A stretch of DNA of 64,000 nt from Streptomyces liangshanensis. Lineage in GTDB: Bacteria; Actinomycetota; Actinomycetes; Streptomycetales; Streptomycetaceae. The notes beneath the pieces were generated by a model. It had not been told where the DNA came from, ran no database searches, and saw only the letters and a list, made by a program, of their open reading frames with translations. Location of the stretch: assembly GCF_011694815.1 (NCBI RefSeq), contig NZ_CP050177.1:4931001-4995000 (forward strand), in the 5' to 3' direction. Every line of letters starts with the position of its first letter. The first letter of the stretch is position 1. Shown one piece after another: positions 9,725-29,883 of the stretch. Made by a program: the position numbers and the translations under genes.

Positions 9725-9728
<4 letters not shown>
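8589..9728 (+). CDS. purK: N5-carboxyaminoimidazole ribonucleotide synthase
   Basis: 379 aa from a GTG. It converts AIR, ATP and bicarbonate to N5-CAIR in purine synthesis. An ATP-grasp fold is evident: N-terminal [39 protein letters not shown] for nucleotide binding, and the C-terminal [19 protein letters not shown] motif with metal and substrate residues. Length matches the family. Its stop overlaps the purE start (ATGA), so the two consecutive pathway enzymes are translationally coupled. Confidence 0.97.
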
Positions 9729-10245
<517 letters not shown>

Positions 10246-10249
<4 letters not shown>

Positions 10250-11448: not shown

Positions 11449-11459
11449 CGCCCACGGAC

Positions 11460-11664
11460 GTCCTCAAGCGCCGGACGGGCTTCGGGGCCGGTGGGCCGCG
11501 CGGGTCAAGGACGTCCTCAAGCGCCGGACGGGCTGGGGTGGGCGCTGTGCGGGCTGGGAAAGCCGGGGTGGGCCAGCCTGTCTTGGCGCGCGCCCCCGGC
11601 GACAACCCGCACCAGCGCACCCGGCCCGCAGCGGCACCATCAAGCCTGTCCGGCGATTGAGGAC
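11460..11664. repeat. Three copies of a dispersed 22-bp repeat (GTCCTCAAGCGCCGGACGGG)
   Basis: Copies at 11460-11481 and 11513-11534 are direct and identical over GTCCTCAAGCGCCGGACGGG; 11643-11664 is an inverted, slightly altered copy. The rest of this 250-base gap between the dipeptidase and the minus-strand kinase is featureless GC-rich sequence. Three more copies lie at 56653-56831. Confidence 0.85.
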
Positions 11665-11701
11665 AACAGTGACCGCAACGCGGTCGCCACCCGCGCCCCG
11701 G

Positions 11702-13732
11702 CTACGCACCCGGCATGGGCAGCGTCAGCGTGAACACCGTCCCCACGCCCAAAGAACTCGACGCGCTCACCACACCCCCATGCGCCTCCGCCAACTTCCG
11801 CACGATGGACAGCCCCAACCCACTCCCTCCCGTCCCCCGACTCCGGGACTTCTCCGCCCGCCAGAACCGGTCGAAGACATGCGGAAGCTCGTCCGGAGCA
11901 ATCCCACTCCCCGTGTCCTCGACCTCGATCAGCACCCGAAGCCCCTCCACCCGCGCCCGGAGCGTGACCTCACCACCCCGCGGGGTGTGCCGGATCGCGT
12001 TCGAGACCAGGTTCCCCAACGCCTGCCGCAGCCGCACCGGATCCGCTTCCAACAACAGCCCCAGCGGGGACCCCGCGACCGAGAGCGCCACCCCCGCCTG
12101 TTCCGCGCTCGCGCGGTGCGCCACCGCCGTCTGCGCCAGCAGGTCCCCCACGTCCACCCACTCCTTCCGCAGCCGCAACTCACCCGCGTCCGCCGCCGAC
12201 AGATCCCGCAGGTCGTCGATGACGTGCTGGAGCAGCAGCGCCTCCTCCAGCAGCGAGGTCAGCAGGACCTGGTCGTGCGCGACCACCCCGTCCTCCGCCG
12301 CCTCCAGCCACCCGCGGATGTTGCTCAGCGGCGTCCGCAGCTCGTGCGCGACGTCGCTGACCATCGCCTTGCGTACGGACTCCAGTTGCTCGCGCCGCTC
12401 CGACATGGAGTTGAACGCGACCGCGAGGCGCGCCAGTTCGTCGCCGCCCGTCACCCGCACGCGCGCGGCCGTGTCGCCGCCCTCCATGCGCCGGGCCGCG
12501 TGGGTCAGGGCCCGGAGGGGCCGTACGAGCCGGATGCCCGCCAGGGTGGTGACCGTGACGGTCACCAGCAGGACCAGCGCCGCGCCCCCGGCGATCCGCG
12601 CCCGATTCCCCGCCGACAGGTCGAAGAACGTCGTGGCCGCGCGGGCGGGACTGCTGACGTACAGGAGCGCGGAGGGCGCCACGTACGGTGCCAGCTGCTC
12701 GGCGCGGCTCGTGCTGACGCAGGTGTTGACGAGCGAGGTGTTGGCGTCGGAGGGCGCCTTGACCGGAGCGGGGGCGGCAGCCGTGTCCTGAGGCGGGCTC
12801 GCACGCGGCGTGGCCACCGCCTCCGCCGCGCCACCCGGCCCCGTACCAGGAACCCGGCCCGTACCAGGAACCCCGCCCGCCCCCGGAACCCCTCCCCACC
12901 CCGGAGCCACCCGCGTCGCGTCACTCGGCACCACGCGGGCGGCCCCCGGCGCCGACGTGGGCGCCTGGGACATCGGCGACCACGTGTAGTCCCTGGCCAG
13001 CACCACCGGCTCCGCGTGCACCCGGTCCAGGCACTTGTCGACCAGCGTGCTCAGCGCCCCCAGCGCCCGCGTCTCCGTCCGCGTCGAGGCGTCCAGCGCC
13101 GTGTTGGCGCAGCGCTGCCCGGAGGCGTTGGCGTCGTCGCCGTTCGGGACCACCAGGCGCGGGCGGCCGTTGGGCTCGTTCGTGATCTGGGCGGTGACGC
13201 CCCACGTGTCGCTCAGGCACTTCACGGTCCGCGACGCGGCCTCCCGCAAGGCCGTACGTTCCTTCCCCGTCAGCCGGAAGGGCCCCACCGCGCGCGGGTC
13301 GATCCGGTCGGCCGACCCGGTCCGTGACAGTTCCGGGCTGACCGACAGCGGGTTGACGACGGCGGTCGGCTTCGACGGAGGCCGGTACGGGTGTCCCCGT
13401 ACGGGCGCGGAGTCGGCGACCGGCACCTCGCCCTGGAGCAGCACGATGCGGTGGTTGGTGTCGTCGGCGAGGGCCGCGACCGTGGGGCCGACCCCGGCCC
13501 AGTTCGGATGGGTCGCCGCGTACCCGAGAAGGTGGTCGTAGATCTTCGCGTCGTCCGCGAGGGCCTGGCCCTGCTCCTTCTGGATCGCGACCGCCGTCGT
13601 CCGGACGACCACCCACGCGGTCGCGGCGACCGAGCACACGGAGACGAGGACGGTCACCGCCAACAGCCGCAGCAACAGGCTCCGGCGCAGCGGTACGTCC
13701 CGGCCACCGGCGGCCGGCTCCCTACGCCACAC
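11702..13732 (-). CDS. Sensor histidine kinase with large extracytoplasmic domain
   Basis: 676 aa from a GTG at 13732, which has AGGGGGG five bases upstream and overlaps the end of the regulator gene by 11 bases. Helix 1 is at about 17-42 (LLAVTVLVSVCSVAATAWVV). A ~350-residue outer domain includes an alanine/proline-rich low-complexity part. Helix 2 is IAGGAALVLLVTVTVTTLAG, then HAMP, His463 in VAHELRTPLSN, and the ATPase boxes NLVSNAIRH, VEDTGSGIAPDEL and GGSGLGLSI. It pairs with the OmpR-type regulator just upstream. An alternative start at 13789 lies deeper inside the regulator gene. Confidence 0.92.
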   Translation of the reverse strand: MWRREPAAGGRDVPLRRSLLLRLLAVTVLVSVCSVAATAWVVVRTTAVAIQKEQGQALADDAKIYDHLLGYAATHPNWAGVGPTVAALADDTNHRIVLLQGEVPVADSAPVRGHPYRPPSKPTAVVNPLSVSPELSRTGSADRIDPRAVGPFRLTGKERTALREAASRTVKCLSDTWGVTAQITNEPNGRPRLVVPNGDDANASGQRCANTALDASTRTETRALGALSTLVDKCLDRVHAEPVVLARDYTWSPMSQAPTSAPGAARVVPSDATRVAPGWGGVPGAGGVPGTGRVPGTGPGGAAEAVATPRASPPQDTAAAPAPVKAPSDANTSLVNTCVSTSRAEQLAPYVAPSALLYVSSPARAATTFFDLSAGNRARIAGGAALVLLVTVTVTTLAGIRLVRPLRALTHAARRMEGGDTAARVRVTGGDELARLAVAFNSMSERREQLESVRKAMVSDVAHELRTPLSNIRGWLEAAEDGVVAHDQVLLTSLLEEALLLQHVIDDLRDLSAADAGELRLRKEWVDVGDLLAQTAVAHRASAEQAGVALSVAGSPLGLLLEADPVRLRQALGNLVSNAIRHTPRGGEVTLRARVEGLRVLIEVEDTGSGIAPDELPHVFDRFWRAEKSRSRGTGGSGLGLSIVRKLAEAHGGVVSASSSLGVGTVFTLTLPMPGA

Positions 13733-14516
13733 GGAAGCCCCCCTCGGCGCCCCCGGACCCGCCACCGTCCCCACGGGCGCCCCCCTCACCAGCGCCGGCC
13801 CCTGTCCCCGCCCCCGCGGCCTCCCCGTCCGCCAGCTTGTACCCCACCCCGTACACCGTGACCAGCGTGCGCGCCCGGCGCGGATGGGGCTCGATCTTCT
13901 TCCGGAGGTTCATGACGTGCACGTCCACCGTCCGCGACGTGATGTAGCGGTCGAAGCCGTGCAGCTGCTCCAGGATCTGCGCGCGCGTGAAGACCTGCCC
14001 AGGCCGCTCCGCCAGCACCTCCAGCAGCCGGAACTCGCCCGGAGTGCACTCGATCCGCCGGCCGTGCGCCCACACCTCGTGCCGCCCGGGGTCGACCCGC
14101 AGCGCCCCGACGGTCAGGACGGGGTCGGGGGCCGGCGCGGCGGCAACCGTACGGGCGCTCCTGCGCAGCAGCGAACGGATCCGCGCCATCAGCTCGCGCG
14201 GGCTGAACGGCTTGGTCATGTAGTCGTCCGCCCCCAGGTCGAGCCCCAGCAGCAGGTCGTCCTCGGTGGAGCGCGCGGTGAGCATCAGCACCGGCAGGTC
14301 GGACTCGGTCCGCAGGATCCGGCACACGTCGAGACCGTCGACCTTGGGCATCATCACGTCCAGGACGAGGAGGTCCGGGGGCCGGTGCCGTACCTGTTCC
14401 AGCGCGGCCCTGCCGTCGTGCACGACCACCACGTCGTGGCCCTCCCGCTCCAGGTAGCGGCGGACCAGCTCGGCCTGCTTCTTGTCGTCCTCGGCGACCA
14501 CCACGTACGCGCACAT
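13722..14516 (-). CDS. OmpR/PhoB-family response regulator
   Basis: 264 aa. Receiver domain with VVAEDDK, Asp53 in VLDVMMPKVDG, Thr80 and Lys102 (MTKPFSPREL). The winged helix follows (CTPGEFRLLEVLAERPGQV ... TLVTVYGVGYKL). The last ~35 residues are a glycine/alanine-rich tail (GAGTGAGAGEGG), longer than usual. The start at MCAYVVV fits the fold. The downstream kinase gene overlaps its 3' end, so the two are cotranscribed on the minus strand. Confidence 0.94.
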   Translation of the reverse strand: MCAYVVVAEDDKKQAELVRRYLEREGHDVVVVHDGRAALEQVRHRPPDLLVLDVMMPKVDGLDVCRILRTESDLPVLMLTARSTEDDLLLGLDLGADDYMTKPFSPRELMARIRSLLRRSARTVAAAPAPDPVLTVGALRVDPGRHEVWAHGRRIECTPGEFRLLEVLAERPGQVFTRAQILEQLHGFDRYITSRTVDVHVMNLRKKIEPHPRRARTLVTVYGVGYKLADGEAAGAGTGAGAGEGGARGDGGGSGGAEGGFRVA

Positions 14517-14973
14517 GCGAACGAGTCTAGGAACGGGCGCCGCCCAGGAGGCCCGCGAGGGGTCCCCCCGACCCGCGGACCACGAGCGCCACACCGTTCC
14601 CTGACAAGTCTCTGACATTCCGCCGGGCGTACCCCCCCACCCCTCACCGCCCACCCCCACGGCCCCACCCGCCCCCGCACCCGCACGTGTCCGTCCCAGC
14701 CCCGTCGGCTCGACGGCTCGGAGGCATGCCGCACCCACCCGCACGGCGGCCGCACAGGGCAGCCCCCCGCCCCGCACCCGCAGGCGGCCGCACACCCCCG
14801 CCCGCACCACGGCCTCGCAGCCCCCGAACCACGCCCCCGCAGCCCCCGCGCAGGCCCCCCGCACAGCTCCCCGCAGCCCCCCGTACCCCCGAACGCCCCG
14901 TCCGCCGCGACCCCCGGCCGGTCCCGTGACACGGTGGCCTGACTGCCGTCACCGACGACCCCGGAGCCTCGTA
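14517..14973. other. C-rich intergenic region with quadruplex-prone minus strand
   Basis: No gene is supported. The plus strand is strikingly C-rich with many runs of four to six C (for example 14842-14888), so the minus strand has several closely spaced G runs. It separates the divergent regulator gene and the dipeptidase-like gene and should contain both promoters, but no -10/-35 pair stands out. Confidence 0.6.
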
Positions 14974-16137
14974 ATGGCAGATTTGCAGGACGATCCGTAC
15001 ACCGACACCACGACCGCCCCGTCCACCCCACCGGACACGGCCCCGGCCGACGCCGTCGACACGACCCCCGTCGACGCGACCCCCTTCGACGTGGTCGACC
15101 CCCGGGTCGGCTCCGACGAGCGGGCCCGGGCGCTGCTCGCCGCCCACCCCGTCATCGACGGCCACAACAGCCTGGCCCAGGCGCTCCGGCACATGAGCCC
15201 GCACGACCTGGAGCTGGGCGAGGCGGCGCTCGACACCGACATCCCGCGGATCCGCGCGGGCGGCGTCGGGGGACAGTTCTGGTCCCTGGTCGTCCCCGGA
15301 CAGGCCGCCGACCAGAACCGCGCGATCAGCTCCACCCTGGAGCTGATCGACCTCCTGCGGTCACTGATCTCCGACTGCCCGGAAGGCCTGCGGCTCGCGC
15401 TGAACGCCGGTGACCTGTCCGACGCCCGCAACTGCGGCCGGGTGGCCTCGTTCCTCGGCCCGGTCGCCGGGTACGCCCTGGGCGACTCCATCGGCACCCT
15501 GCGCGGCTACCACGCGCTCGGCGTCCGGTGTGTCGCGCTCGCCGGCGCCGGCTGGGCGGCCGACGGGCTGACCCGCTTCGGCCAGGAGATGGTCAGGGAG
15601 ATGAACCGCCTCGGCGTACTTGTCGACCTGTCGGGCACCTCCGGCGCGACGATGCGCGCCGGGCTCGCGGTCGCGAAGGCGCCCGTCCTGCTGTCGCGTT
15701 CGGCGGCCGGCGCCCTGACCGACCACCCGGCCAACGTCGCCGACGACGTCCTGGCGCTGCTCCCCGCCAACCACGGCGTCTGCATGGTGAGCTTCGCCCC
15801 GGAACAGGTCGTCCGTGCCGCGGGCCGGCCGTCTGTCCGGGACGTCGCCGACCATGTCGAGCACGTACGGAAGGTGGCGGGCCCGGAGTGCGTGGGCCTG
15901 TCGGGGACGTACGGCCTGGCCGCCGACACCCCTCGTACCGCCGGGCTGGAGGACAGCTCCCGCTACCCCGCGCTGATCGCGGAACTGTTCGACCGGGGCT
16001 GGGACGAGACCGATCTGGCGGCCCTGACCTGGGGCAACGCGGCGCGGGTGGTACGGGACGTGGAGTTCGCGGCCCGCGCGGCGCAACAGCGCCGAGGCCC
16101 GTCGAGCGCCACCATGGAGGACCTGGACGGCAGATGA
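14974..16137 (+). CDS. Dipeptidase (M19) paralogue lacking metal ligands, probable pseudoenzyme
   Basis: 387 aa, collinear with the M19 enzyme at 10246 (shared blocks such as [51 protein letters not shown] and LTWGNAARVVRDVE). The catalytic positions are changed: HND becomes HNS, GAEGG becomes GPVAG, DLSHVA becomes DLSGTS, SHSSAR becomes SRSAAG and GGDFDG becomes SGTYGL. Only the first His remains. The reading frame is intact with normal codon bias, so it is selected as a protein but cannot use the family's binuclear zinc mechanism. The N-terminal 40 residues are acidic and Thr/Pro/Asp-rich. Possible roles are binding, scaffolding or regulation (inference). Confidence 0.85.
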   Translation: MADLQDDPYTDTTTAPSTPPDTAPADAVDTTPVDATPFDVVDPRVGSDERARALLAAHPVIDGHNSLAQALRHMSPHDLELGEAALDTDIPRIRAGGVGGQFWSLVVPGQAADQNRAISSTLELIDLLRSLISDCPEGLRLALNAGDLSDARNCGRVASFLGPVAGYALGDSIGTLRGYHALGVRCVALAGAGWAADGLTRFGQEMVREMNRLGVLVDLSGTSGATMRAGLAVAKAPVLLSRSAAGALTDHPANVADDVLALLPANHGVCMVSFAPEQVVRAAGRPSVRDVADHVEHVRKVAGPECVGLSGTYGLAADTPRTAGLEDSSRYPALIAELFDRGWDETDLAALTWGNAARVVRDVEFAARAAQQRRGPSSATMEDLDGR

Positions 16138-19033: not shown

Positions 19034-20143
19034 CTACCGCCGTCGGCCGACGACGTGGTGTGGGTCGTCCATCCAGACCCGCTGCCCGTCCCCGTCCACC
19101 GACAGCCCGAAGCGGGCGCGCTCCGGCGTCCCCAGGTCGTGCCACTGAAGGAACGCCTCGCGTACGTCGTCCCACAGCGCCCGCGAGCCGTACTGCTCCA
19201 CCTCGTACGTCTCCGAGTCCGGGACGTACTCCACCGTCGCCCATGACGCGCCGTCGTCGGCGAAGAACCACAAGGTGGCTTCCCCACTGTTGTCGTCGGC
19301 CTCGCACCACCGGAACCACGCGTCGGTGAGGGTCAGGCCGATGAAGAAGGCCGGATCGTCCTGGACAACATTCTGCGGCGGGATGTCCGTCGTCCCCTTC
19401 ACCCCTTCCTCCGCGCGGTACAGGTCCGCGATACGCCCGGCCCCGCCCCGGTGGGCGCGATCCCACATGAAGGCCGGCGACCCGGAGAACGTGCCCTGGG
19501 CCTTCCCGTCCACCACGTCCAGGGTGGCGAACGAGCCGCTGAAGAAACTGCTCCCCCAGGGCGTGACGATCCGCCCGTCCGGACACTGCTCCAACCACGC
19601 TCCAGGCACGTCACGCATCGTGCAGGTGCAGACGATCCGGTCGTACGGCGCTCCTTCGCGATGCCCGTCGCGGCCGTCACCGAGAATCGTCGTCGGCCGG
19701 AACCCGGCCCGCTTCAGATTCGCCTCGGCCAGGGACAGCACCTGTTCGTCCACCTCCACACTGGTCACCCGGGTCTCGCCCAAGCGGTGGGAGAGCCATG
19801 CGGCGTGGTAGCCGGTACCGGTGCCGATCTCCAGAACGCGATGCCCGTCCCGTACGTCCAGCAGGGCGAGCATTTCGAGCATGACCGACGGCATGGACGA
19901 GGACGACGTGGGCAACCGGAAGGCATCGTCGGGCGCGGGGTGCCCGTCGTTGACCTGGGTCACGACCGGCCTGTCCGCGTAGACGATCCGTAACCATTCC
20001 TCCGGGTCCTCGGCGAAATCACCACCGACGATCACCTCAGGAATGAACAGCGCCCGATCCACCGACGCCACGGCGTCGCGCCACTCCGGTGGCAGCGCGC
20101 CCTTCCCCACGAGGCTCCGAACAAGCCGCTGCTGTGTTGTCAT
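19034..20143 (-). CDS. PIMT-like protein O-methyltransferase with C-terminal extension (RiPP-associated type)
   Basis: 369 aa, about 150 longer than ordinary protein-L-isoaspartate O-methyltransferases. The SAM fold covers about 60-225: VLEIGTGTGYHAAWL (motif I), VTSVEVDEQVLSLAEANL, GDGRDGHREGAPYDRIVCTC and PDGRIVTPWGS, all PIMT-like. The extension (WFRWCEADD, EATLWFFADDGASWATVEY, RFGLSVDGDGQRVWMDDP) resembles that of methyltransferases associated with ATP-grasp or FxLD RiPP precursors. In established RiPP systems such enzymes methylate an Asp side chain that then closes to aspartimide. Its start lies 6 bases after the stop of a 38-aa peptide gene, which is the likely substrate. A general repair role is less likely given the extension. 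Confidence 0.88.
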   Translation of the reverse strand: MTTQQRLVRSLVGKGALPPEWRDAVASVDRALFIPEVIVGGDFAEDPEEWLRIVYADRPVVTQVNDGHPAPDDAFRLPTSSSSMPSVMLEMLALLDVRDGHRVLEIGTGTGYHAAWLSHRLGETRVTSVEVDEQVLSLAEANLKRAGFRPTTILGDGRDGHREGAPYDRIVCTCTMRDVPGAWLEQCPDGRIVTPWGSSFFSGSFATLDVVDGKAQGTFSGSPAFMWDRAHRGGAGRIADLYRAEEGVKGTTDIPPQNVVQDDPAFFIGLTLTDAWFRWCEADDNSGEATLWFFADDGASWATVEYVPDSETYEVEQYGSRALWDDVREAFLQWHDLGTPERARFGLSVDGDGQRVWMDDPHHVVGRRR

Positions 20144-20149
20144 CGAGCC

Positions 20150-20266
20150 TCACTTCTTCTTGGGCGGCGGCTCGTAGGGCCGGGTCGGCCCCGGCGGCTT
20201 GTCCCGGTGGCCGTCGCTGCTGGAGGTGTCCGGCGTCCCGGAGTGGCTTCCACCCTTCTTGCTCAT
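20150..20266 (-). CDS. 38-residue candidate RiPP precursor peptide
   Basis: ATG at 20266 to TGA at 20150, 38 codons. Features in order: basic start MSKKGG, a Ser/Thr/His/Asp core with three aspartates (13, 18 and 22) including Asp18-Gly19 in SSSDGHRD, then a proline-rich segment KPPGPTRPYEPPP and a lysine tail KKK. There is no Cys, no hydrophobic segment and no FxLD motif. Asp-Gly is the classic aspartimide-prone pair and PIMT-type enzymes act on such sites. The stop is 6 bases before the methyltransferase ATG, and GAGG just after the peptide stop can act as that gene's ribosome site, so the two are coupled. The coding call rests on this coupling and composition; function is inferred. Confidence 0.7.
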   Translation of the reverse strand: MSKKGGSHSGTPDTSSSDGHRDKPPGPTRPYEPPPKKK

Positions 20267-20319
20267 CTCGGACTCGCTTCCCGTTGAGTGCGGATGGTCA
20301 CGACAACGACGCTACGAAC

Positions 20320-20362
20320 CGACGAAGGTCTTGGTCCACGTTCTTGCACGACCTTGCGTGCG
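20320..20362 (-). promoter_or_regulatory. Candidate promoter/operator of the peptide-methyltransferase pair
   Basis: The 98 bases between the XRE regulator stop and the peptide gene contain AAGGTC (20325-20330) inverted against GACCTT (20350-20355) and two similar boxes, CTTGCACG and CTTGCGTG (from 20343), in a row. The adjacent XRE protein is the natural candidate to bind here. No experimental consensus is known to me for this family, so this is a location hypothesis only. Confidence 0.35.
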
Positions 20363-20364
20363 GA

Positions 20365-21213
20365 CTATCCGAGACGGGTGATCGATTCCGAGATCAGAGC
20401 GCGTGCGGGAGCGCCGTGAACAGCGATCCTGGACAGCTCGGAGAAGGCTTTCGCGTAGGTGGCGACCTCGCTCGGCGCCGAGACGTTCACGGCGGCGGTC
20501 AGCAGCTCGACGCTCGCTTGCCGGCTGTCGAACAAATAGAAGGCCTCCAACGGCCAGACGCGCCGCTGAGCCGTGAAGGGGATCACCCCCAGGCTCACGT
20601 TCGGCAGAGCCATGACCGCCAACAGGTAGCCGAGTTGGCCGGCCATGGTGGCATCGTCACCGATGCGGTACCGGAGAACCGTCTCTTCCAGGAGCAGGGC
20701 GAACCGGTGGTCCCCTTCATGCAGGACGCGTGAGCGCTCGACCCGGGAGGCAGCCGCCGTATCGGAGTCGTCGGGGGTGCCCTGGAACGCGGCGATCGTG
20801 GACAGCAGGGCGGCTGCGTACGCCTCGGTTTGGAGTATGCCCGGTACCACGTTCGAGCAGTACACACGGAAGTGGCGGGTCCGCTCGTACAGCGGAACAA
20901 CTTCCTCCTGGGCCCGGCGCATGCCGTGCCGGTGCAGCTTCTGCCAGTGGACGTACATCTGGTCGGCCTGGCGGTTCGCCGCGATCAGGTCGTCCGTCTG
21001 GTCCACCGCACCGCACGCTTCGCACCAGGCGCGGATGTCCGCGGCCGACGCGGGTGTCTTCGCCCGCTCGATGCGGGACGACTTCGCAGGACTCCACCCG
21101 CACCGGAGAGCCAGCTCATGCCCGGTCAGCTCCGCGTCCTTGCGCAGGTCCCCGAGGCGGGCGGCGATGGCTTCACGGGCGGCCTGGGCGCTGGAGGAGG
21201 GGGATGCGGACAT
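20365..21213 (-). CDS. XRE-family helix-turn-helix regulator (Scr1/DUF5753 type)
   Basis: 282 aa. N-terminal HTH at about 16-70 (LRKDAELTGHELALRCGWSP, RIERAKTPAS), followed by the DUF5753 domain (FRVYCSNVVPGILQTEAYAA, LLLEETVLRYRIGD, LGVIPF, WPLEAFYLFD). Such regulators are numerous in Streptomyces, usually next to a DUF397 or similar small protein, and some control development or antibiotic production. Here the partner upstream is a DUF6879 protein rather than DUF397. It lies between that gene and the peptide-methyltransferase pair, all on the minus strand. Confidence 0.92.
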   Translation of the reverse strand: MSASPSSSAQAAREAIAARLGDLRKDAELTGHELALRCGWSPAKSSRIERAKTPASAADIRAWCEACGAVDQTDDLIAANRQADQMYVHWQKLHRHGMRRAQEEVVPLYERTRHFRVYCSNVVPGILQTEAYAAALLSTIAAFQGTPDDSDTAAASRVERSRVLHEGDHRFALLLEETVLRYRIGDDATMAGQLGYLLAVMALPNVSLGVIPFTAQRRVWPLEAFYLFDSRQASVELLTAAVNVSAPSEVATYAKAFSELSRIAVHGAPARALISESITRLG

Positions 21214-21239
21214 GAGTGGGCTCTTCGTTCTCCGTCGGG

Positions 21240-21770
21240 TCAGACCGTGTAGTTCTCGTGCGGGATGCCGCGTTCCCAGACCGCCTCGAACGCAGCCGAG
21301 GCCAGTCCTGCCACCGCGGGTTCGGAACGAACCTCCCAGCCCGGCTCGGACCAGTCCCCCTCACCGGAGAAGTGGTTGAAGAGCACGATCGCTCCGTCGA
21401 ACACCCAGCAGTCGTTTCCGGGAAGCGCGATGTCCGAAGCGCGCCGCCTCGGCAGCCAGCGAACCCGTTCCCCGGCGTGCAGGTTGACCACCGTGCCCGC
21501 GTGCTCGTACCGGATGTAATCGGTCACCGGTTCCGACACGACCCGAGCGCGGCGGACCACCACGCCTCGGGCGACCGTGCTCCGAACCAGATCAACCCAC
21601 GGCGTCCAGTAGGAGGACGTCGGTTCGATGTCGCGCCGGCCGGTGCGCTTCCAGGTCTCGAAGTCGTCGGCTTCGTCCCCGACGCCGTACGAGTCGCGCA
21701 TCTCCAGGTGTACGGCGGAGCGCTCGGCCGCGGCCAGCAGCTCGTCAAAGCCCGGCTCGTTCTGCGACAT
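21240..21770 (-). CDS. DUF6879-family protein
   Basis: 176 aa. Typical of the family: FDELLAAAERSAVHLEMRD at the N-terminus, W-rich centre (SYWTPWVDLVRSTVARGV), VVVRRARVVSEPVTDYIRYE, and ending with FDGAIVLFNHFSGEGDW. The family is commonly found beside XRE/DUF5753 regulators in actinomycetes and has been likened to a toxin-antitoxin-like or signalling pair; its biochemistry is unknown to me. It ends 26 bases before the XRE start and overlaps the end of the small upstream gene, so all are probably cotranscribed. Confidence 0.85.
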   Translation of the reverse strand: MSQNEPGFDELLAAAERSAVHLEMRDSYGVGDEADDFETWKRTGRRDIEPTSSYWTPWVDLVRSTVARGVVVRRARVVSEPVTDYIRYEHAGTVVNLHAGERVRWLPRRRASDIALPGNDCWVFDGAIVLFNHFSGEGDWSEPGWEVRSEPAVAGLASAAFEAVWERGIPHENYTV

Positions 21771-22002
21771 CGCACGCCTCCCTGAGCATCGGCACCATGC
21801 GGGCCGGAATCCGAATCACGGCTTCGTGCGGCGGGATGCCCGGAGCGTGCCCGGGAAGCTCGAACAGCGCGCACTCCGCCTCCAGCTTCTCGTCCGGCCG
21901 CCAGCCCTGGAGCACCAGCTCTCCCTTCTCCTCGTCCACCCATACCGTGGGGGAGCCCTGCTGCCCGGTGTCTGGATCGATTCCGATGAACCGTAGTGCC
22001 AT
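21745..22002 (-). CDS. Small conserved hypothetical protein
   Basis: 85 aa, starting MALRFIGIDPDTGQQGS with GGAGG 6 bases upstream; the longer ORF start at 22050 was rejected. It includes SPTVWVDEEKGELVLQGW and a C-terminal IRIPARMVPMLREACDVAE. The pattern (short beta-rich N-terminus, amphipathic C-terminal helix) is seen in small proteins encoded before DUF6879 genes. Its 3' end overlaps the DUF6879 start by 26 bases. Function unknown. Confidence 0.75.
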   Translation of the reverse strand: MALRFIGIDPDTGQQGSPTVWVDEEKGELVLQGWRPDEKLEAECALFELPGHAPGIPPHEAVIRIPARMVPMLREACDVAERAGL

Positions 22003-22157
22003 GACTGCCTCCGGCGTTGAGGGGCTTACGCCAACTTGCACGAGCGTCATCCCTGAACCGCTTGGACGTCAAGAGGGCAGCCGGGCCCCGCAGCAGGCGA
22101 CCGACGCTCCCGTGCGGCCCGCAATCGGGCGTGGCCACCGAGCCGCCGCTCAACGTG

Positions 22158-22216: not shown

Positions 22217-23446
22217 TCAGTTGCCCTTGACCGTGACCTTTTCGTCGTTGTTGAGCTGGTTCACCAGTTCCTTGACCTTCGCCGTGTCCCAGAGCAGGTT
22301 GCCGCCCGAGCTGCCCGCGAGCGGGATGTTCATCGACGTGCCGTCGCCGCCCGTGACGCCCTTCATCGCGAAGAACATCTTGCCGAGCGAGTACAGGGAC
22401 ATGTCCTTGTCCACGATCAGGGTGTCCAGGCCCGAGCCCATGGTCGGGTAGAACTTGAACGGGTTGAGGACCGTGCCCGGGGTCGCCGTCTGGGAGGCCA
22501 GGGCCGCGAGGAACTTCTGCTGGTTCTTCGTACGGTCCAGGTCACTGCCCGCGAACGCGTACCGCGTCCGGACGAACGCCAGCGACTGCTCGCCGTCCAG
22601 GGTCTGCTTGCCCGCCTTGAAGTCCGCGCCGGACTTCTTGTCCTTGAAGGCCTTCGGGATGTCGAGCTCCACCCCGCCGATCGAGTCCACGATGTTGGCG
22701 AAGCCGGCGAAGCCGATCTCGACGTAGTGGTCGATCCGCAGGCCGGTCTTGGCCTCGACGGTGCGGACCAGCAGGGTAGGGCCGTCCTCGGCGTAGGCCG
22801 CGTTCAGCTTCTTGTGCTGGTTCGGCTGGGCCGGGAACAGCTTGCCCGACTCCGAGCCCTTGAACGACGGGATCGTCACGTCCGAGTCACGCGGCAGCGA
22901 GATCAGCGTCGGACCGTTCGACCCCGTGTGCAGGATCATCATCGAGTCGGTGCGCTTGCCCTCGGCCGAGCCGGTGTGGAGGTCCTTCTTCTCCTCCGAC
23001 GACATGCCCTCGCGGCTGTCCGAGCCGACGATCAGGTAGTTCGTGCCGTCGCCCTGCGCCGGGCGGTCGATGACCTGCGACAGGTCGACCTCGCGCTTGA
23101 GCTTGCCGTCCGCCCAGAAGTACGTGCCGATGGAGACACCGAGGACCGCGACGACCAGCACCAGCGAGCCGATCTTGAGCCGGCGCCGCCAGTCCGGCGC
23201 CTGCCGCGGCGCGGATCCCGCCGGGGGCGGGGGATAACCGCCCCGGCCACCGCCGCCCGCGCCCCCCGCGGGCGAGCCGTAGACCTGGCCCGTGTTGTAG
23301 CCGCTGTCGTACCCCTGCTGCTGGGGTACGCCCTGCGGTGCCTGTACGTGGGGCATCGCGCGGGCGCCCTCGGGCTGCGCGCCCGTACTGCCGCGTCCGT
23401 AACGCCCGCCGCTCTCGCCGTTCCGCCCCTCGGGCCACTCGTTCAT
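22217..23446 (-). CDS. LytR-CpsA-Psr (LCP) family protein, paralogue 1
   Basis: 409 aa; start at MNEWPEG rather than the long ORF start at 23929, which runs into the divergent thioesterase. The first ~85 residues are cytoplasmic and Gly/Pro/Gln-rich; one helix (about 91-110, IGSLVLVVAVLGVSIGTYF) anchors the protein. The LCP domain outside contains LIVGSDSREG, TDSMMILH, ISLPRDSDV, KLNAAYAEDGP and LAFVRTRYAF with the conserved Arg residues that bind polyprenyl pyrophosphate. LCP enzymes attach glycopolymers to peptidoglycan. It lacks the LytR_C domain present in paralogues 2-4. Confidence 0.93.
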   Translation of the reverse strand: MNEWPEGRNGESGGRYGRGSTGAQPEGARAMPHVQAPQGVPQQQGYDSGYNTGQVYGSPAGGAGGGGRGGYPPPPAGSAPRQAPDWRRRLKIGSLVLVVAVLGVSIGTYFWADGKLKREVDLSQVIDRPAQGDGTNYLIVGSDSREGMSSEEKKDLHTGSAEGKRTDSMMILHTGSNGPTLISLPRDSDVTIPSFKGSESGKLFPAQPNQHKKLNAAYAEDGPTLLVRTVEAKTGLRIDHYVEIGFAGFANIVDSIGGVELDIPKAFKDKKSGADFKAGKQTLDGEQSLAFVRTRYAFAGSDLDRTKNQQKFLAALASQTATPGTVLNPFKFYPTMGSGLDTLIVDKDMSLYSLGKMFFAMKGVTGGDGTSMNIPLAGSSGGNLLWDTAKVKELVNQLNNDEKVTVKGN

Positions 23447-23576
23447 GTCAGCCAGTGTGCCGGGCCGTGCCCGGCCGCTGACAGGGAGGATGGGGAATCG
23501 GGTCGGCCCTGTTGCCAAGCTGATGCAATGCGACCCGTATCGGAACGCCACAGACCTCCCACATAGGGTGGAGGGC

Positions 23577-24140
23577 ATGACAGCCCAGCCGGACCGTCCG
23601 GACCTTCCCGGGAAACCGACCTCCGCGTCCCGGACCACGCTCAGCCACATCATGACCGGCAGCGACACCAATCTGCTGGGTACGGTGCACGGCGGCGTGA
23701 TCATGAAGCTCGTGGACGACGCGGCGGGCGCCGTCGCGGGCCGGCACTCCGGCGGCCCCGCCGTCACCGCCTCCATGGACGAGATGGTCTTCCTGGAGCC
23801 GGTCAGGGTCGGCGACCTCGTCCACGTACGCGCCCAGGTCAACTGGACCGGCCGCTCCAGCATGGAGGTCGGCGTACGGGTCATGGCCGAGCGCTGGAAC
23901 GAGTCGACGCCCGCGACCCAGGTCGGCACCGCGTACCTCGTCTTCGCCGCCGTCGACGCGGACGGCAGGCCCCGCCCCGTACCGCCGGTGGTCCCGGAGA
24001 CCGAACGGGACCGGCGCCGCTACCAGGAGGCGCAGATCCGCCGTACGCACCGGCTCGCCCGGCGCCGCGCGATCAAGGAACTGCGCGAGAAGCGCGCGGC
24101 CGAGGGCTTCGACGACACGCGCGAGGCGCGGGAGAACTGA
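23577..24140 (+). CDS. Acyl-CoA thioesterase (hotdog fold)
   Basis: 187 aa from an ATG with GGAGGG close upstream. The hotdog signature TVHGGVIMKLVDDAAGAVA with FLEPVRVGDLVHVRAQVN marks a BACH/YciA-type acyl-CoA hydrolase of the cytosol. The C-terminal ~45 residues are highly charged (RDRRRYQEAQIRRTHRLARR) and helical, as in actinobacterial members. It stands alone on the plus strand between two minus-strand LCP genes, divergent from paralogue 1 and convergent with paralogue 2. Acyl-chain preference unknown. Confidence 0.9.
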   Translation: MTAQPDRPDLPGKPTSASRTTLSHIMTGSDTNLLGTVHGGVIMKLVDDAAGAVAGRHSGGPAVTASMDEMVFLEPVRVGDLVHVRAQVNWTGRSSMEVGVRVMAERWNESTPATQVGTAYLVFAAVDADGRPRPVPPVVPETERDRRRYQEAQIRRTHRLARRRAIKELREKRAAEGFDDTREAREN

Positions 24141-24168
24141 CCGCCGGCCGAGGACAGGGCGTGCCGTC

Positions 24169-25842
24169 TCAGGGGCACGCCACCTGGTCGCCCGTCATCG
24201 CCTCGAACCGACCCGCGGGCGTCGCCTCGACCCGTACCGGCGCCACCGTCCGGTACTCCGACCCCGCCATCACCTTCAGCGTCCCGCCCTGCCCCTTCAC
24301 GGCCCGCAGCTCGCTGCCCGGCAGCGCGGCCGCCAGGGACCGCGCCGAACGGTCCCAGCGCGGGTCGTAGAGCACCTGTGTGCGCTTGACGTCCCGTACG
24401 CCGGCGGCGAGCGGCGCGCCCGTCGTACGGAAGCCGGTGGCGCGCAGCGCGTCGTCCACCTGCTTGCCCAGGCCGTCCGTACGGGTCGCGTTGTAGACCT
24501 GCACCCGGATGTCCGCCGGCTTCACGTCGACGAGGGCGGCCTTGGGAGCCGCGGAAGGTGCCCCCGGAGGTGCCGCGGAAGCTGCCGCGGAGGGTGCCGC
24601 GGAAGGCGCCCCGGCCGCCGCCGTCCCCGGGGCCTTCGACGCGGCGGGCGGCGGTACGGACGCCGGCGGCGCGGCGGACGGCCCCGGCGCACCCGCCGCC
24701 CCAGGTGCCGGCCCGGCGGCCGGGTCCCGGGGGACCGACGGTCCCGGCAGCGCCAGCGGCTTGTCCTCGCGCAGCGCCCGGAACAGCTTCTTCGACTTCT
24801 CCGGGTCCCACTTCACCGTCGAGCCGATGCCCGGCAGCGACACTCCCTTGGCCAGCAGAGGTACGGAGGTGAACTCCGAGGACGACGGGGAGAAGCCGCG
24901 CATCGCCTTGTTCAGGCTCAGCAGCTGCTGCGCGCCGAAGCCCGCGTCCGCCCGTACCGAACCGAGCAGGGCCCGCGTCACGTCGCGGAACTTCACCGGG
25001 TTCAGCAGCACCCCGTTGCTCGTGGCCCGGCTGATCAGCGCCGCGACGAAACGCTGCTGGCGTTGCATCCGGCTGAGGTCGGCGTTGCCGTCGATGTGCC
25101 GCGACCGCACGTACTGGAGGGCCTGGCCGCCGTCGAGCCGGTGCGTGCCGGGGGTCAGGTCGAGTCCGGTGTACGAGTCCTTCAGCGCCCGCGGCGTGCA
25201 GATCTCGACCCCGCCGATCGTGTCCACCGTCTTCATGAAGCTGGTGAAGTCGACCTCCAGGTAGTGGCTGATCTTCACGCCCGTCATGTGCTCCACGGTC
25301 CTGACCGTGAGGTTGGGACCGCCCTCCGCGTACGCCGCGTTGATCTTCACCGGGTGCGCCTTGTGCTTCTTGCCTGTGGTGGAGTCGGTGTGCGCGGGGA
25401 TCTCGGCGTAACTGTCGCGGGGCAGGCTCACGACGCTGGCCCGCTTCCCGTCCTCCGAGAGGTGGACCAGCATGATCGTGTCGGTGCAGTGGCAGGGCGC
25501 GCCGCCCAGCCGGTACTTCTGCCGCTCGGCCTCGGTGATCCTGTCCCGGCCGTCGGTGCCGACGAGGAGGAGGTTGAGGCCGTGGCCCGCGTCGGGCCTG
25601 TTCTTCATGTCCTTGAAGGCGTCGACCCGGTCGATCCCGGTGTCGAGGCTGGTCACCACCGCGTGGCCGATCCCGCCGGCGCCCAGCACGAGCACGGACA
25701 GGGTGGTCGCCGCGCGCATGCCCCAGCGGGGCCGCCCGTCACGCCGTACCGGCTGCCGTCCGGCGCCGCGCCGGGCGGGCGGCCTCGGGCGGGCGGCGGC
25801 CGGGCGGCGGGCGGGACGGGGGGAGCGGGGCGGCGTGGGCAC
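24169..25842 (-). CDS. LCP family protein with LytR_C domain, paralogue 2
   Basis: 557 aa from GTG at 25842, which has GGAGG eight bases upstream. Basic, proline-rich cytoplasmic N-terminus, one helix (AATTLSVLVLGAGGIGHAVV), LCP domain (LLLVGTDGRDRI, TDTIMLVHL, VVSLPRDSYAEIP, KINAAYAEGGP, YVRSRHIDGNADLSR). An Ala/Pro-rich linker of about 60 residues precedes a LytR_C domain (DIRVQVYNATRTDGLGKQV). Extra cysteines (CHCTDT) sit in the LCP core. Probable cell-wall glycopolymer ligase. Confidence 0.92.
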   Translation of the reverse strand: MPTPPRSPRPARRPAAARPRPPARRGAGRQPVRRDGRPRWGMRAATTLSVLVLGAGGIGHAVVTSLDTGIDRVDAFKDMKNRPDAGHGLNLLLVGTDGRDRITEAERQKYRLGGAPCHCTDTIMLVHLSEDGKRASVVSLPRDSYAEIPAHTDSTTGKKHKAHPVKINAAYAEGGPNLTVRTVEHMTGVKISHYLEVDFTSFMKTVDTIGGVEICTPRALKDSYTGLDLTPGTHRLDGGQALQYVRSRHIDGNADLSRMQRQQRFVAALISRATSNGVLLNPVKFRDVTRALLGSVRADAGFGAQQLLSLNKAMRGFSPSSSEFTSVPLLAKGVSLPGIGSTVKWDPEKSKKLFRALREDKPLALPGPSVPRDPAAGPAPGAAGAPGPSAAPPASVPPPAASKAPGTAAAGAPSAAPSAAASAAPPGAPSAAPKAALVDVKPADIRVQVYNATRTDGLGKQVDDALRATGFRTTGAPLAAGVRDVKRTQVLYDPRWDRSARSLAAALPGSELRAVKGQGGTLKVMAGSEYRTVAPVRVEATPAGRFEAMTGDQVACP

Positions 25843-26020
25843 GGGGGACACCTCCGCGGTGGGTAGGGATCGTGAGCACCGTAGGCCCATACGATCAGCG
25901 ACCTCGGAAGCGACCGGACGGCGCGCGCCGCTGTCCCCCGTTCGCGGTAACGCGACGGCCGCGCCTTGCCCGCCGTACCCCCTCCTACCTACCTGCCTGC
26001 CTGCGTGCCTGCCCGCCCGC

Positions 26021-27763
26021 TCAGAAGCGGTACGGCGCGTACACGTCCATGCACGCCTTGCTGTCCGACCCGTTGATGGCGTCCGCCGTACCGGGGATGC
26101 CCCCCGCCTTCGGCTTCGCCTTCGCCGGGTACGACGTGCCGGTGCGCCAGTCGGCGCCCACGACGACCGTGATCCCCGAGACGCTCGTGGACTGTGTGAC
26201 CGACGTCAGCGGGATCCCGAGGGCCTTCGCGACGGCCTGGGCGTCCCCCTCCAGGTCCGCGCTCGGGTACGTCACCTCCGTGGCCTCCTGCGGGCTCTGC
26301 TGCGTGCCCGCCTCGGCCCGCGTGAAGCCCTTGCCGTCGAGCACGTCCGCGACGGCCCGCGCGCGGCCCGACACCGGGGCCTGCTCCCCGCCGGTCCCGT
26401 TGAGCACCGTCACGCCCGTGTCGGCGGGCGCGTCGGACGGCGCCTTCGACGCGGGCCCGGTGGGCTTCCCGGCCGCCTCGGCCTTGTCGCCGTTGGCGTC
26501 GAACGCCACGTCGTCGCGGATCATCGTCCACATGCGGTCGGCGTCCGCCTTGTTGGGGACGACGTGGTTCCGGTTCTGCGGGTCCTCGATCCACGGCATG
26601 GTCGTCATCGTGAGGCGGTTGGTCGGCACGGCCTTGAGCTGCATGCCGAGGTCGAACAGCTTCTTGACCGTACCGATCTCCTTGGAGACCTCCAGCGACT
26701 TCGTGGCCGCCTCGGCGAGGCCCCTGAGCCGCAGCGAGTCGGTGAAGACGTTCTGCGACTTGAGCTCACGGATCATCGAGTTCATGTACATGTGCTGGGC
26801 CCTGGCCCGGCCGATGTCGCTGGAGAACGCGTGCCGCGTCCGCAGCCACTGCAAGGCCTGCTTGCCCTGGATACGGGTCGTGCCCTTCTCCAGCTTCAGC
26901 CCGGAGCCGCCCGGCACGCCCGGCAGCGGCCGGTCCCAGACGTTGTCCTTGACGCAGACGTCGACCCCGCCGATCGCGTCGGCCATCTGCACCACACCGG
27001 AGAAGTCGATCGTCATCCAGTGGTCGATGTAGACGCCGGTGAGGTTCTCCCAGGTGCTGAGCGTGCAGCCGGGGCCGCCGCGCCCCAGGGTCTCGTTGAT
27101 GATGCCGTTGGTCTTCGGGTAGACCTTGCCGGTCGCGCTGTCCTTGCACTCCGGGATGTCGACGCGGGTGTCGCGGGGGATGCTGACGACCGAGGCGTTC
27201 TTGCGGTCGGCGGAGACGTGGAACAGCATCTGCACGTCCGCGAGCGGGGGATTGCCCGCGGTGTCCTTGCTGCCGCCGAGCTTGACGTTCTCCGGATCCG
27301 CGCGGCTGTCCGAGCCGATCAGCAGGATGTTGAGAGGGGTCTGCCCGGCCTCGTTGGCCGCGGGCTTCTTGAGGCCGGTGTCGCCGTTGTTGCGGTCGTC
27401 GGTGCGTATGTTGCCGTTGAGGTGCCGGTAGTACAGGTATCCGGCCCCGGCGGCCACGAGCAGCAGCAGGGCGAGGACACCCGCGGTCCAGCGGACGACG
27501 CGCCAGCCCCGGCGTCTGGGGGGTTTCCCGCCTTTACGGGCCTTGCGGGGCGCGGTCCCGTCCGTACCGTGCCCGTCCGCCCCGCCGGCCCTGTCAGCCC
27601 CGTCACCGGCCGGCCCGTCCACCGCGCCGCCCGAGCCGCCCGTACCGTCCGACGGTGCGCCGCCGTCGGAGCCCGCGTCGTACAGGCTGTCGTCCCAGCC
27701 CAGTTCACGGGCGTGCGGCTGGCGCCGCCGCGACCGCTCCCTGGGCGTGCTGCTGTGACCCAC
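26021..27763 (-). CDS. LCP family protein with LytR_C domain, paralogue 3
   Basis: 580 aa from GTG at 27763 with AAGGGGGA upstream. Acidic/Gly-rich cytoplasmic tail of ~85 residues, helix WTAGVLALLLLVAAGAGYLYY, LCP domain (ILLIGSDSRADPE, DVQMLFHVSADRKNA, VVSIPRDTRVDIP, LRTRHAFSSDIGRARAQ) and LytR_C (DTGVTVLNGTG ... ITVVVGADWRTG). Conserved cysteines near PECKDSATG and GPGCTLST may form the disulfide known from actinobacterial LCP proteins. It ends 179 bases before paralogue 2 and starts 51 bases after paralogue 4, so it is probably cotranscribed with paralogue 4. Confidence 0.93.
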   Translation of the reverse strand: MGHSSTPRERSRRRQPHARELGWDDSLYDAGSDGGAPSDGTGGSGGAVDGPAGDGADRAGGADGHGTDGTAPRKARKGGKPPRRRGWRVVRWTAGVLALLLLVAAGAGYLYYRHLNGNIRTDDRNNGDTGLKKPAANEAGQTPLNILLIGSDSRADPENVKLGGSKDTAGNPPLADVQMLFHVSADRKNASVVSIPRDTRVDIPECKDSATGKVYPKTNGIINETLGRGGPGCTLSTWENLTGVYIDHWMTIDFSGVVQMADAIGGVDVCVKDNVWDRPLPGVPGGSGLKLEKGTTRIQGKQALQWLRTRHAFSSDIGRARAQHMYMNSMIRELKSQNVFTDSLRLRGLAEAATKSLEVSKEIGTVKKLFDLGMQLKAVPTNRLTMTTMPWIEDPQNRNHVVPNKADADRMWTMIRDDVAFDANGDKAEAAGKPTGPASKAPSDAPADTGVTVLNGTGGEQAPVSGRARAVADVLDGKGFTRAEAGTQQSPQEATEVTYPSADLEGDAQAVAKALGIPLTSVTQSTSVSGITVVVGADWRTGTSYPAKAKPKAGGIPGTADAINGSDSKACMDVYAPYRF

Positions 27764-27813
27764 GCGGGTCCCCCTTGCTCAGGCCGCCGTGCGCGTGAGC
27801 CGGGAATCCGGCG

Positions 27814-29652
27814 TCACTTGGCGCAGACCTGTTTGTCGGCTTTTGTGGTCGGCACCGGCGCCTTTGCCGGACCGGTGATGGGCACCCCCGCGCCCTTGAA
27901 GTCCTTGCCGAGGGTCAGCTCCATCGCCTGGAGACCCACCGCGTCCTCCGTCCCCTGCTTCAGCGCCGCGCCCGGCAGCCCCATCATCGCGGCGAGCGCG
28001 CGGGCCTGGTCGGCCTGGTTGGGCGCGTACACGAGGGTCGTCTTGGCCAACGGCGCCGGCGCGTTGCCCTTGTTCGTGGACTTGAGCACGCCCTCGTCGT
28101 TCTGGAGCCAGTTGAGCGTCGTCTGCGCCGAGCCCTGCGGGCCGCCGCCGTTGAAGACGTCCACGCGCACGTCCGCGGCATCCGCCTTCGGGCCCTGGAG
28201 GACCTTGTTCTGCGCGGCCTTGGCCGCGCTCTCCTTCTCCTTCACCTCGCTCAGCGAGGTGTCGTTCGCGATCAACGAGAACAGCTGCTCGGCCGGCGCC
28301 TCGTTGACGACCACCGTGGCCCTCCTCGTCGGGGCCTCGCCCGGGTTGTCCAGCACCGGGACGGTGGCGAAGGTGATGTTCTTGGGACTGACCTTGGCGA
28401 TTTCCTTCGCCAGCGACACGAGCTTGGTGATGGAGCCGATGCCGGAGTCGACCGTCAGCGACTTCGTCGCCGCCTCGGCCAGGTCCGTCACCTTGGAGAC
28501 GTTGGTGAGGGTGTCCTTGGACGCCATCTGCCGCAGCAGCGAGCTCAGGAACTGCTGCTGCGTCTTGATACGGGTCAGGTCGCTCCCGTCGCCGAAGGCG
28601 TGGCGCGTACGGACGAAGGCGAGCGCCTGCTCGCCCGCGATGGTGCTCTCGCCCGCGGGAAGCTTGAGGTGCGACTTGGGGTCGTCGACGGCCTTGTCGA
28701 CACACACCTGGACCCCGCCCACCGCCGTGCTCATCGTCTTCACGGCGTTGAAGTCGGCCATCATGAAGTGGTCCGGTGTGATCCCGGTGAGTTCCTTGAC
28801 CGTGGCCATCGTGCAGCCGGGGTCGCGGCCGTCCTGGCCGAGGCTGGTGTTGAACCGCGGTTCCGACACACTGTGCGGTGTGGCCGGAATGACCTTGGTC
28901 TCGCCGTCCGCGGTCTTGGTCGTGCACTCCGGGATGTCGAGGACGAGGTCACGCGGGATGGACAGCACCGTCGCGTTCGTCCGGTCCTGGGAGACGTGGA
29001 AGAGGAGGGTCGTGTCGGCGTGGCCGACGCTGCCCGCGTCGCCGTAGCTCTGGTTCCCGGCTCCGGTGCGCTTGTCCGTGCCGATCACGAGGATGTTGAT
29101 GGGCTTGTCCTTCTCGAAGCCCTTGTCGCTCGCGCCCGCCACGTCGATGGTCGAGATGTTGCCGTTCAGGTGCCGGTAGTACAGGTACCCGCCGGTGGAC
29201 GCGGCGATGAGTACCACCGCCATCGTGCCGCCGGTCCACAGCAGCACCTTCTTCGCCCGCGACTTCTTCTGCTTGCGCTTGCGCCGGCCGGCCGCCGCCT
29301 GCGTCTCGTTCGCGGGGCCCTTGCCGGCCCGGCGGCTGCGCTGCCCCGGTACGTCGGCGGCGCGCGTCCCGCTGTCCGCCGCGCCGCCCTTCCCCCGGGC
29401 ACCGCCGCGCCGGGGCGTGCCCCCGGCGGGCGTGTCCGTCCTCGGCGTGTCCCTGCCCCGCCCGGGCGCCTCCGACTTGGCGCTCGGCGGCGTGCCACGC
29501 CTGCCGGAGCGGGCCCCCGGCGGCGGCGACGCGGGGGCCGACTGCCCTCCGGAGTGGTCCAGTCGCAGTTCGTAATTACCGGTTCGCGGGTTGAGTACCC
29601 ACTGGTCGGCGGGGTCGATCTCGTCCGCCTGTCCACGGTTCTGCGCATCCAC
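27814..29652 (-). CDS. LCP family protein with LytR_C domain, paralogue 4
   Basis: 612 aa, the longest of the five. The ~135-residue cytoplasmic part is very basic (RRKRKQKKSRAKK just before the membrane). Helix VLLWTGGTMAVVLIAASTGG, then the LCP domain (ILVIGTDKRTGAG, ADTTLLFHVSQDRTNA, VLSIPRDLVLDIPEC, FVRTRHAFGDGSDLTRIK) and a LytR_C domain (DVRVDVFNGGGPQGSAQ). Its N-terminus (ADQWVLNPRTGNYELRLD) is an Actinobacteria-type motif that may contact cytoplasmic partners. Ligase role inferred from family. Confidence 0.93.
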   Translation of the reverse strand: MDAQNRGQADEIDPADQWVLNPRTGNYELRLDHSGGQSAPASPPPGARSGRRGTPPSAKSEAPGRGRDTPRTDTPAGGTPRRGGARGKGGAADSGTRAADVPGQRSRRAGKGPANETQAAAGRRKRKQKKSRAKKVLLWTGGTMAVVLIAASTGGYLYYRHLNGNISTIDVAGASDKGFEKDKPINILVIGTDKRTGAGNQSYGDAGSVGHADTTLLFHVSQDRTNATVLSIPRDLVLDIPECTTKTADGETKVIPATPHSVSEPRFNTSLGQDGRDPGCTMATVKELTGITPDHFMMADFNAVKTMSTAVGGVQVCVDKAVDDPKSHLKLPAGESTIAGEQALAFVRTRHAFGDGSDLTRIKTQQQFLSSLLRQMASKDTLTNVSKVTDLAEAATKSLTVDSGIGSITKLVSLAKEIAKVSPKNITFATVPVLDNPGEAPTRRATVVVNEAPAEQLFSLIANDTSLSEVKEKESAAKAAQNKVLQGPKADAADVRVDVFNGGGPQGSAQTTLNWLQNDEGVLKSTNKGNAPAPLAKTTLVYAPNQADQARALAAMMGLPGAALKQGTEDAVGLQAMELTLGKDFKGAGVPITGPAKAPVPTTKADKQVCAK

Positions 29653-29883
29653 GGTTGCTTGAATCCTCCGTCGGTGCCACGCGAGGCGCCTCCCCCCGAA
29701 AGCGCTCGGTCAGTCGATCCAGCAGTGCGCGGCCCGAAGGCCGGACGCACCGGATCGCGTCACACTATCCGCCCCGTCTGGCGTCCAGTGACGCCAGTGA
29801 CCCATTGCACGCTCCTTACAAGCGGGCAATACGCCTATTCCTCATCGATCCCCGCCGGACCCGCGTTCTCCTTGGGCCCTGCT

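Follow-up and report, generated by a model that had tools for sequence, protein, structure and literature searches.

Organization of the locus

The window analysed here is a stretch of 64,000 nucleotides of the single 7.7-Mb contig that makes up the genome of Streptomyces liangshanensis (NZ_CP050177.1). The subject of this work is a group of five genes on its minus strand, which comprises a putative precursor peptide gene, a methyltransferase gene directly behind it and a three-gene regulator cassette. In the order of transcription, the following elements were assigned:

21745..22002, minus strand: small 85-aa protein, first gene of the regulator cassette; no family above cut-off in the NCBIfam/Pfam profile search
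21240..21770, minus strand: DUF6879 protein (Pfam E 5.6e-53; phospholipase D (PLD)-like fold in the model)
20365..21213, minus strand: XRE-family regulator with HTH_31 and DUF5753 domains (Pfam; PLD-like fold in the model)
20273..20282, minus strand: putative ribosome-binding region of the peptide gene, GGGAAGCGAG
20150..20266, minus strand: candidate precursor peptide of a type I pamtide/imiditide, 38 aa, with D13/D18/D22 and a Lys-rich C-terminus (orthologue conservation)
19034..20143, minus strand: PAMT, a PIMT-family O-methyltransferase of 369 aa (TIGR04188/PF01135 matches, motifs)

The peptide open reading frame (ORF) has 117 bases and encodes the sequence MSKKGGSHSGTPDTSSSDGHRDKPPGPTRPYEPPPKKK, with Asp at positions 13, 18 and 22 and no Cys; no NCBIfam or Pfam model matched it. 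A gap of 6 bases separates its stop codon from the ATG of the methyltransferase gene. A preliminary description of this DNA had reported a 38-aa ORF 6 bases ahead of a PIMT-like methyltransferase with an extension, and both the coordinates and the domains are confirmed. Its statement that no ATP-grasp or LanB/C-type enzyme is present agrees with our scan: neither an ATP-grasp peptide ligase nor LanB/C was found among the 16 flanking ORFs scanned against Pfam, a subset of the ORFs between 8.0 and 31.5 kb, four of which had no match at E ≤ 1e-5. The sole ATP-grasp protein among them is PurK (8589-9728), a purine enzyme encoded 9.3 kb away.

The methyltransferase carries the features of a PAMT

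The best NCBIfam model for the methyltransferase is the graspetide-system model TIGR04188, which aligns over residues 7-355 (E 7.9e-92, 308.4 bits), and the FxLD methyltransferase model also matches. Among the matched sequences of solved structures, 25 in number, the best is the PIMT from Thermotoga (PDB code 1dl5), and the others include further methyltransferases. The enzyme contains an S-adenosylmethionine motif (residues 103-111), an SSSS stretch (80-83) and, in the C-terminal domain, the acidic stretch EADDNSGE (281-288) as well as the sequence WHDLGTP (334-340), which conforms to the WxxxGxP motif. P340 is invariant in an alignment of 27 related enzymes, and W334 and G338 are nearly so. 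WxxxGxP has been reported for several PIMTs associated with ribosomally synthesized and post-translationally modified peptides (RiPPs; review by Zhu and Link, PMC13001092; published work is cited here and below from the portions of the text that were available). Thus, the 369-aa protein has both the C-terminal extension of more than 100 aa and the WxxxGxP motif by which PAMTs are recognized.

The core of the enzyme matches PF01135 and four canonical PIMT models with E values of 5e-22 to 2e-27, as would be anticipated for a repair-type PIMT that lies by chance beside a small ORF that is not its substrate. We regard this explanation as scarcely credible. The cut-offs of the canonical repair PIMT models TIGR00080, NF001453 and NF010549 are not reached, and the protein has 369 residues against 215-217 positions in the models; moreover, it bears the C-terminal domain with WxxxGxP, and the peptide is conserved together with it. 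A role in defence, suggested by a PADLOC match to mad2 (E 1.8e-18), was rejected, since the match is confined to residues 90-174, that is, to the methyltransferase core. Matches to TIGR03830 and TY-Chap3 were at chance level only.

The calculated charge of the enzyme from residue 216 on is about -14, and that of the peptide is +3.7. The acidic C-terminal domain may hold the basic, linear 38-aa peptide, and the enzyme would then methylate one of its Asp residues. By analogy with characterized relatives, the resulting Asp methyl ester would close spontaneously to an aspartimide, followed by hydrolysis to isoaspartate (isoAsp) or Asp. No biological role of aspartimide or isoAsp in this class is established in the available text of PMC10787088 and PMC13001092.

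The candidate precursor peptide is conserved with the enzyme

A methyltransferase match at E ≤ 1e-20 was found in 94 of 150 related genomes. We examined 68 loci, namely the 60 best of the listed methyltransferase matches after the window's own, seven named relatives from a genome-contig scan (all Streptomyces) and the window itself. Eight loci encode enzymes 67-82% identical to that of the window, and in each of them a clear peptide orthologue is encoded directly ahead of the enzyme, with frame, start and position retained. Because these are conserved in eight orthologous loci, the pairing is more than chance, and on this comparative evidence the ORF is a real gene. Across the 34 codons aligned from the nine close loci (these eight and the window), 11, 9 and 23 sites are variable at codon positions 1, 2 and 3, respectively. 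Nonsynonymous divergence (dN) from the window is lower than synonymous divergence (dS) in all eight pairs, and amounts to less than half of it in seven (for L095, dN 0.05 and dS 0.37).

The wider set was filtered for ORFs of length ≤ 60 lying at a gap ≤ 60 with a composition score ≥ 0.7. This filter returned a Gly/Pro/Asp-rich peptide in 57 of the 68 loci, window included, with a median of 42 aa and contents of 22.0% Gly, 14.7% Pro and 11.0% Asp. All 57 contain Asp, 52 contain Asp-Gly and two contain Cys; the last ten residues carry a net positive charge in 41. Eleven loci fail the filter (L039, L057, L064, L072, L073, L074, L079, L080, L085, L087 and L101), of which L080 and L085 have a pamtide-like tail within a longer frame. 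The search for homologous peptide ORFs before related methyltransferases that the preliminary description had proposed as a check thus gave a positive outcome, in nine of nine close loci including the window and in 57 of 68 overall; the loss of Asp in homologues, which it had named as contrary evidence, was not seen.

The same description had taken D18, in its Asp-Gly pair, for the likely aspartimide site. This residue, which is followed by Gly, is still favoured as the most likely site. The expectation of a single conserved Asp was not borne out, since D13, D18 and D22 are each Asp in nine of nine close loci. All sequences in an alignment of 16 peptides have Asp in the D18 column, and 12 of 16 have it in each of the D13 and D22 columns, a count that is ambiguous because the aligner used another Asp than that of SDG in four L034-type peptides.

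An alternative in which the methyltransferase tailors a graspetide or lanthipeptide together with other enzymes encoded elsewhere in the genome appears very improbable to us. It would explain why TIGR04188 is the best model and why the FxLD model matches. Two of the 68 loci, L074 and L087, have directly upstream an apparent ATP-grasp C-terminus, judged by its motif, and they are counted in its favour. Against it, no such enzyme occurs among the flanking ORFs scanned, the part of the genome covered by this search; the peptide has no Cys; and peptide and enzyme are kept as a pair in all nine close loci.

A regulator cassette is linked to the locus

The genes for the DUF6879 protein, the small protein and the XRE regulator are present in nine of nine close loci. 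They lie upstream on the same strand in seven, are inverted upstream in L032, and are found downstream in L099. One cassette set stands on each side of the peptide-methyltransferase pair in L096, and in L097 the XRE is more distantly related (32% identical) and accompanied by an additional DUF6879. The cassette of L099 is located between two PAMT genes, whose products are 67% and 36% identical to that of the window.

Within about 3 kb, all three cassette genes are present in 18 of the 68 loci, XRE alone in 10 and none in 40. The complete set is found in all nine close loci, in 9 of 48 other loci with a peptide, and in none of the 11 loci without one. The 715 kb of the 68 methyltransferase loci contain 47 XRE-type ORFs, 21 DUF6879 and 19 small proteins, whereas the respective numbers in 40 control stretches (800 kb) are 2, 0 and 0. 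The profiles used in this comparison were built from the test loci and so favour them, and the loci are related and not independent. By Pfam, the source genome has four DUF6879 matches (one of them weak and with a stop) and 22 DUF5753 matches, and in each case two lie beside its two pamtide loci.

A regulator dedicated to pamtides was considered and rejected. Of the fetched XRE loci that lack a listed methyltransferase, 20 of 20 have genes for DUF6879 and the small protein, and none of the 20 has a methyltransferase match. One of them, L142, a 10.5-kb contig, has a near-identical cassette (XRE 90%, DUF6879 87%) with a perfect tandem repeat, and other genes come after the repeat; no methyltransferase match was found in the 9.8 kb of it that were fetched. 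As the cassette is common without the methyltransferase (the 20 loci, L142 included), we regard it as a general module whose targets can be exchanged; a role of the peptide as a ligand specific to it is therefore unlikely.

The varying place and orientation of the cassette and its occurrence elsewhere would also suit a toxin-antitoxin system or mobile element that came to lie next to pamtide loci simply by insertion, and related XRE/DUF397 pairs were once proposed as toxin-antitoxin systems (Makarova et al. 2009, as cited in PMC10364602 and PMC7159879). We consider this rather unlikely, given that 14 DUF397 proteins were non-toxic in S. coelicolor (PMC10364602), that the XRE, DUF6879 and small proteins have no match in PADLOC, that the cassette is enriched at pamtide loci, and that repeats are found at the peptide promoter.

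Tandem repeats in the two promoter regions

Similar tandem repeats were found between the XRE stop codon and the peptide start (O1) and before the small protein gene (O2), together with candidate promoter elements:

22067..22072, minus strand: TTGACG, putative -35 element of the promoter serving the regulator cassette, with 25 nt between it and O2 downstream
22026..22041, minus strand: O2, candidate autoregulatory operator, tandem repeat GTGCAA-N4-GCGTAA (repeat pattern, relatives)
20344..20359, minus strand: O1, candidate XRE operator of the peptide promoter, tandem direct repeat ACGCAA-GGTC-GTGCAA (repeat pattern, relatives)
20309..20314, minus strand: TAGCGT, putative -10 element of the peptide-methyltransferase operon, with 29 nt between it and O1 upstream

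The O1 pattern RYGCAA-N4-GTGCAA occurs once in the window (0.01 expected) and once in the 7.7 Mb, and the O2 pattern GTGCAA-N4-GYGYAA once in window and genome, with no match when read backwards; these counts alone prove little because the patterns were written after the sites had been seen. Related loci lend independent support. Similar repeats follow closely after the XRE stop in L031, L033, L049, L078, L095 and L098, and also in L096 in its downstream cassette. The inverted L051 has one in the gap shared by the two gene groups, and a further repeat precedes the small protein gene in L033, L049, L051, L095, L096 and L098. L032 has only a two-mismatch site in its shared gap. With at most one mismatch to GTGCAA-N4-GTGCAA, 11 sites were counted in the test loci (715 kb), 10 of them where expected, and none in the control (800 kb); with exactly two mismatches, 24 (15 at labelled places) and 11, respectively.

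Since tandem YGCAA-type repeats stand at both promoters, the XRE regulator probably controls both, the peptide's and that of its own cassette. The peptide and methyltransferase genes would form an operon transcribed from a separate promoter that directly follows the XRE gene. Binding of XRE to O1, upstream of the -10, would be in an activator-like place, and binding to O2, near the start, in a repressor-like place, and this layout leads us to infer that XRE activates the peptide promoter and represses its own. The preliminary description had noted the regulator genes upstream on the same strand, which stands; these genes are more than passive neighbours, given the similar repeats at the cassette and peptide promoters.

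Cassette-pair linkage and repeats in both promoters could also be read as a peptide-sensing switch that reports on its own modification, with the DUF5753 regulator binding the peptide in its modified form. This appears improbable in view of L142, which combines a near-identical cassette and a perfect repeat with no methyltransferase match in the fetched sequence, and of L049, L051 and L078, in which XREs of this subfamily neighbour pamtides whose sequences are quite different.

Folds of the DUF5753 and DUF6879 domains

In structural models, DUF6879 (21240-21770) clearly and DUF5753 (20365-21213) less clearly adopt PLD-like folds. The motif HxK(x4)D is present in a single one of 36 DUF5753 rows and in none of 21 DUF6879 rows, and HxK alone in 7 and 3, so that the modelled domains appear mostly devoid of the catalytic motif. 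Archaeal TrmB regulators have PLD-like folds too. A speculative extension, which we consider less likely than not, is that the two domains are the halves of one sensor: they would pair like the lobes of phospholipase D, take up a ligand in the cleft between them and so set the occupancy of the XRE operators. Such a switch would be general in Streptomyces and could be combined with different target operons, the pamtide pair among them. With the fold result, two actinobacterial domains of unknown function receive an initial hint of their structure.

Assessment of the proposed system

Taken as a whole, the locus is best read as a type I pamtide system, in which the enzyme would convert an Asp of the peptide, the pair would have its own promoter, and XRE would act at both promoters; we assign this reading a probability of about 80%. 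Besides the bias of the enrichment profiles noted above, several observations weigh against it. The methyltransferase score of 308.4 bits is below the curated TIGR04188 cut-off of 380. The peptide of L033 has a dN of 0.23, barely under its dS of 0.26, and conservation among close relatives does not distinguish D18 from D13 and D22. The XRE search gave 133 matches, spread over 66 of the 150 genomes; at least about nine of these matches, by eye, lie beside a listed methyltransferase. As to the repeats, the O1 pattern read backwards as a control also has one match in the 7.7-Mb genome; O1 and O2 of the window both differ from the symmetric form at two positions, and sites of this kind occur in the control as well; and no repeat was seen behind XRE in L034, L097, L099 or the upstream XRE of L096. 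Finally, L092, a third full homologue in the source genome (G000:C1:5331005-5331598), is a 388-aa open frame with WELEGRP that has no pamtide-like ORF within 450 nt upstream.

A conserved regulator with two candidate operators offers a handle on when the cell makes the peptide, and induction or deletion of XRE should switch the peptide on or off.

Other homologues and neighbouring genes

The second PAMT of the source genome (L081; G000:C1:5359329-5360459) belongs to a second pamtide locus with a GTHGGGTGSGQGG-type peptide, and XRE, DUF6879 and the small protein are located upstream of it, as at the window. Elsewhere in the window, the ORFs scanned include four LytR-CpsA-Psr proteins close together on the minus strand (22217-31452), and two M19 membrane-dipeptidase-family genes on the plus strand that flank a sensor kinase/response regulator pair on the minus strand (10246-16137).

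Comparison with known systems

Pamtides were defined by Lee et al. 2023 (PMC10787088) as two-gene clusters of a precursor and a PAMT. In that work, SpaM and the linear peptide SpaA gave +14 and -18 Da species, and type I members are given as having about 45 aa with 17.3% Gly, 16.8% Pro and 10.2% Asp, values close to those of the 57 peptides found here. Imiditides and type I pamtides are treated as one class in PMC13001092, where 1414 type I members are cited. The window locus presents the same traits, a precursor beside a PAMT with no other primary RiPP enzyme among the 16 flanking ORFs scanned, and a 38-aa peptide rich in Gly, Pro and Asp with conserved Asp near Pro or Gly. By these sequence features it is a type I pamtide, equivalent to an imiditide, and the class is already published; the stand-alone imiditide-like system proposed in the preliminary description agrees with it (PMC10787088, PMC13001092).

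With SpaA-SpaM of Streptomyces sparsogenes and NmaA-NmaM of Nonomuraea maritima the locus shares the two-gene arrangement, a linear Gly/Pro/Asp/Lys-rich peptide of about 40 aa with no Cys and a basic C-terminus, and an enzyme with an extra C-terminal domain and WxxxGxP (PMC10787088, PMC13001092). The window peptide forms its own sequence family, GG..HSG.PDT..SDGHRD.PPGPT.PYEPP, set apart from SpaA and NmaA on the basis of their descriptions, not of their sequences. The modified Asp of NmaA is followed by His, whereas D18 is followed by Gly. Type II pamtides/cysimiditides (FcaA-FcaM) have in common with the window a stand-alone PAMT and a small precursor, but their CxxCxGxG zinc motif is absent from the Cys-free peptide described here. 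Group 13 graspetides (graspimiditides) use a homologous methyltransferase together with an ATP-grasp ligase, which is missing among the 16 flanking ORFs scanned at the window locus.

With regard to regulation, an association between DUF5753 regulators and this family of enzymes is partly known, because DUF397/DUF5753 genes are noted as possible neighbours of group 11 and 13 graspetides (PMC13097080) and DUF5753 regulators are listed beside ATP-grasp loci (PMC8939145). The words regulator and XRE do not occur in the available main texts of PMC10787088 and PMC13001092, and the DUF6879 cassette and tandem repeats at pamtide loci were not found in the literature searched. At the locus described here XRE is partnered by DUF6879, not by the DUF397 that may occur near group 13 graspetides; no DUF397 match was obtained among the five window proteins scanned at E ≤ 0.1. 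Streptomyces XRE-DUF397 pairs such as Scr1/Scr2 (PMC10364602) likewise combine a helix-turn-helix and DUF5753 regulator with a small partner. By contrast, the regulator of the window is accompanied by DUF6879 and the 85-aa protein, both encoded upstream of XRE.

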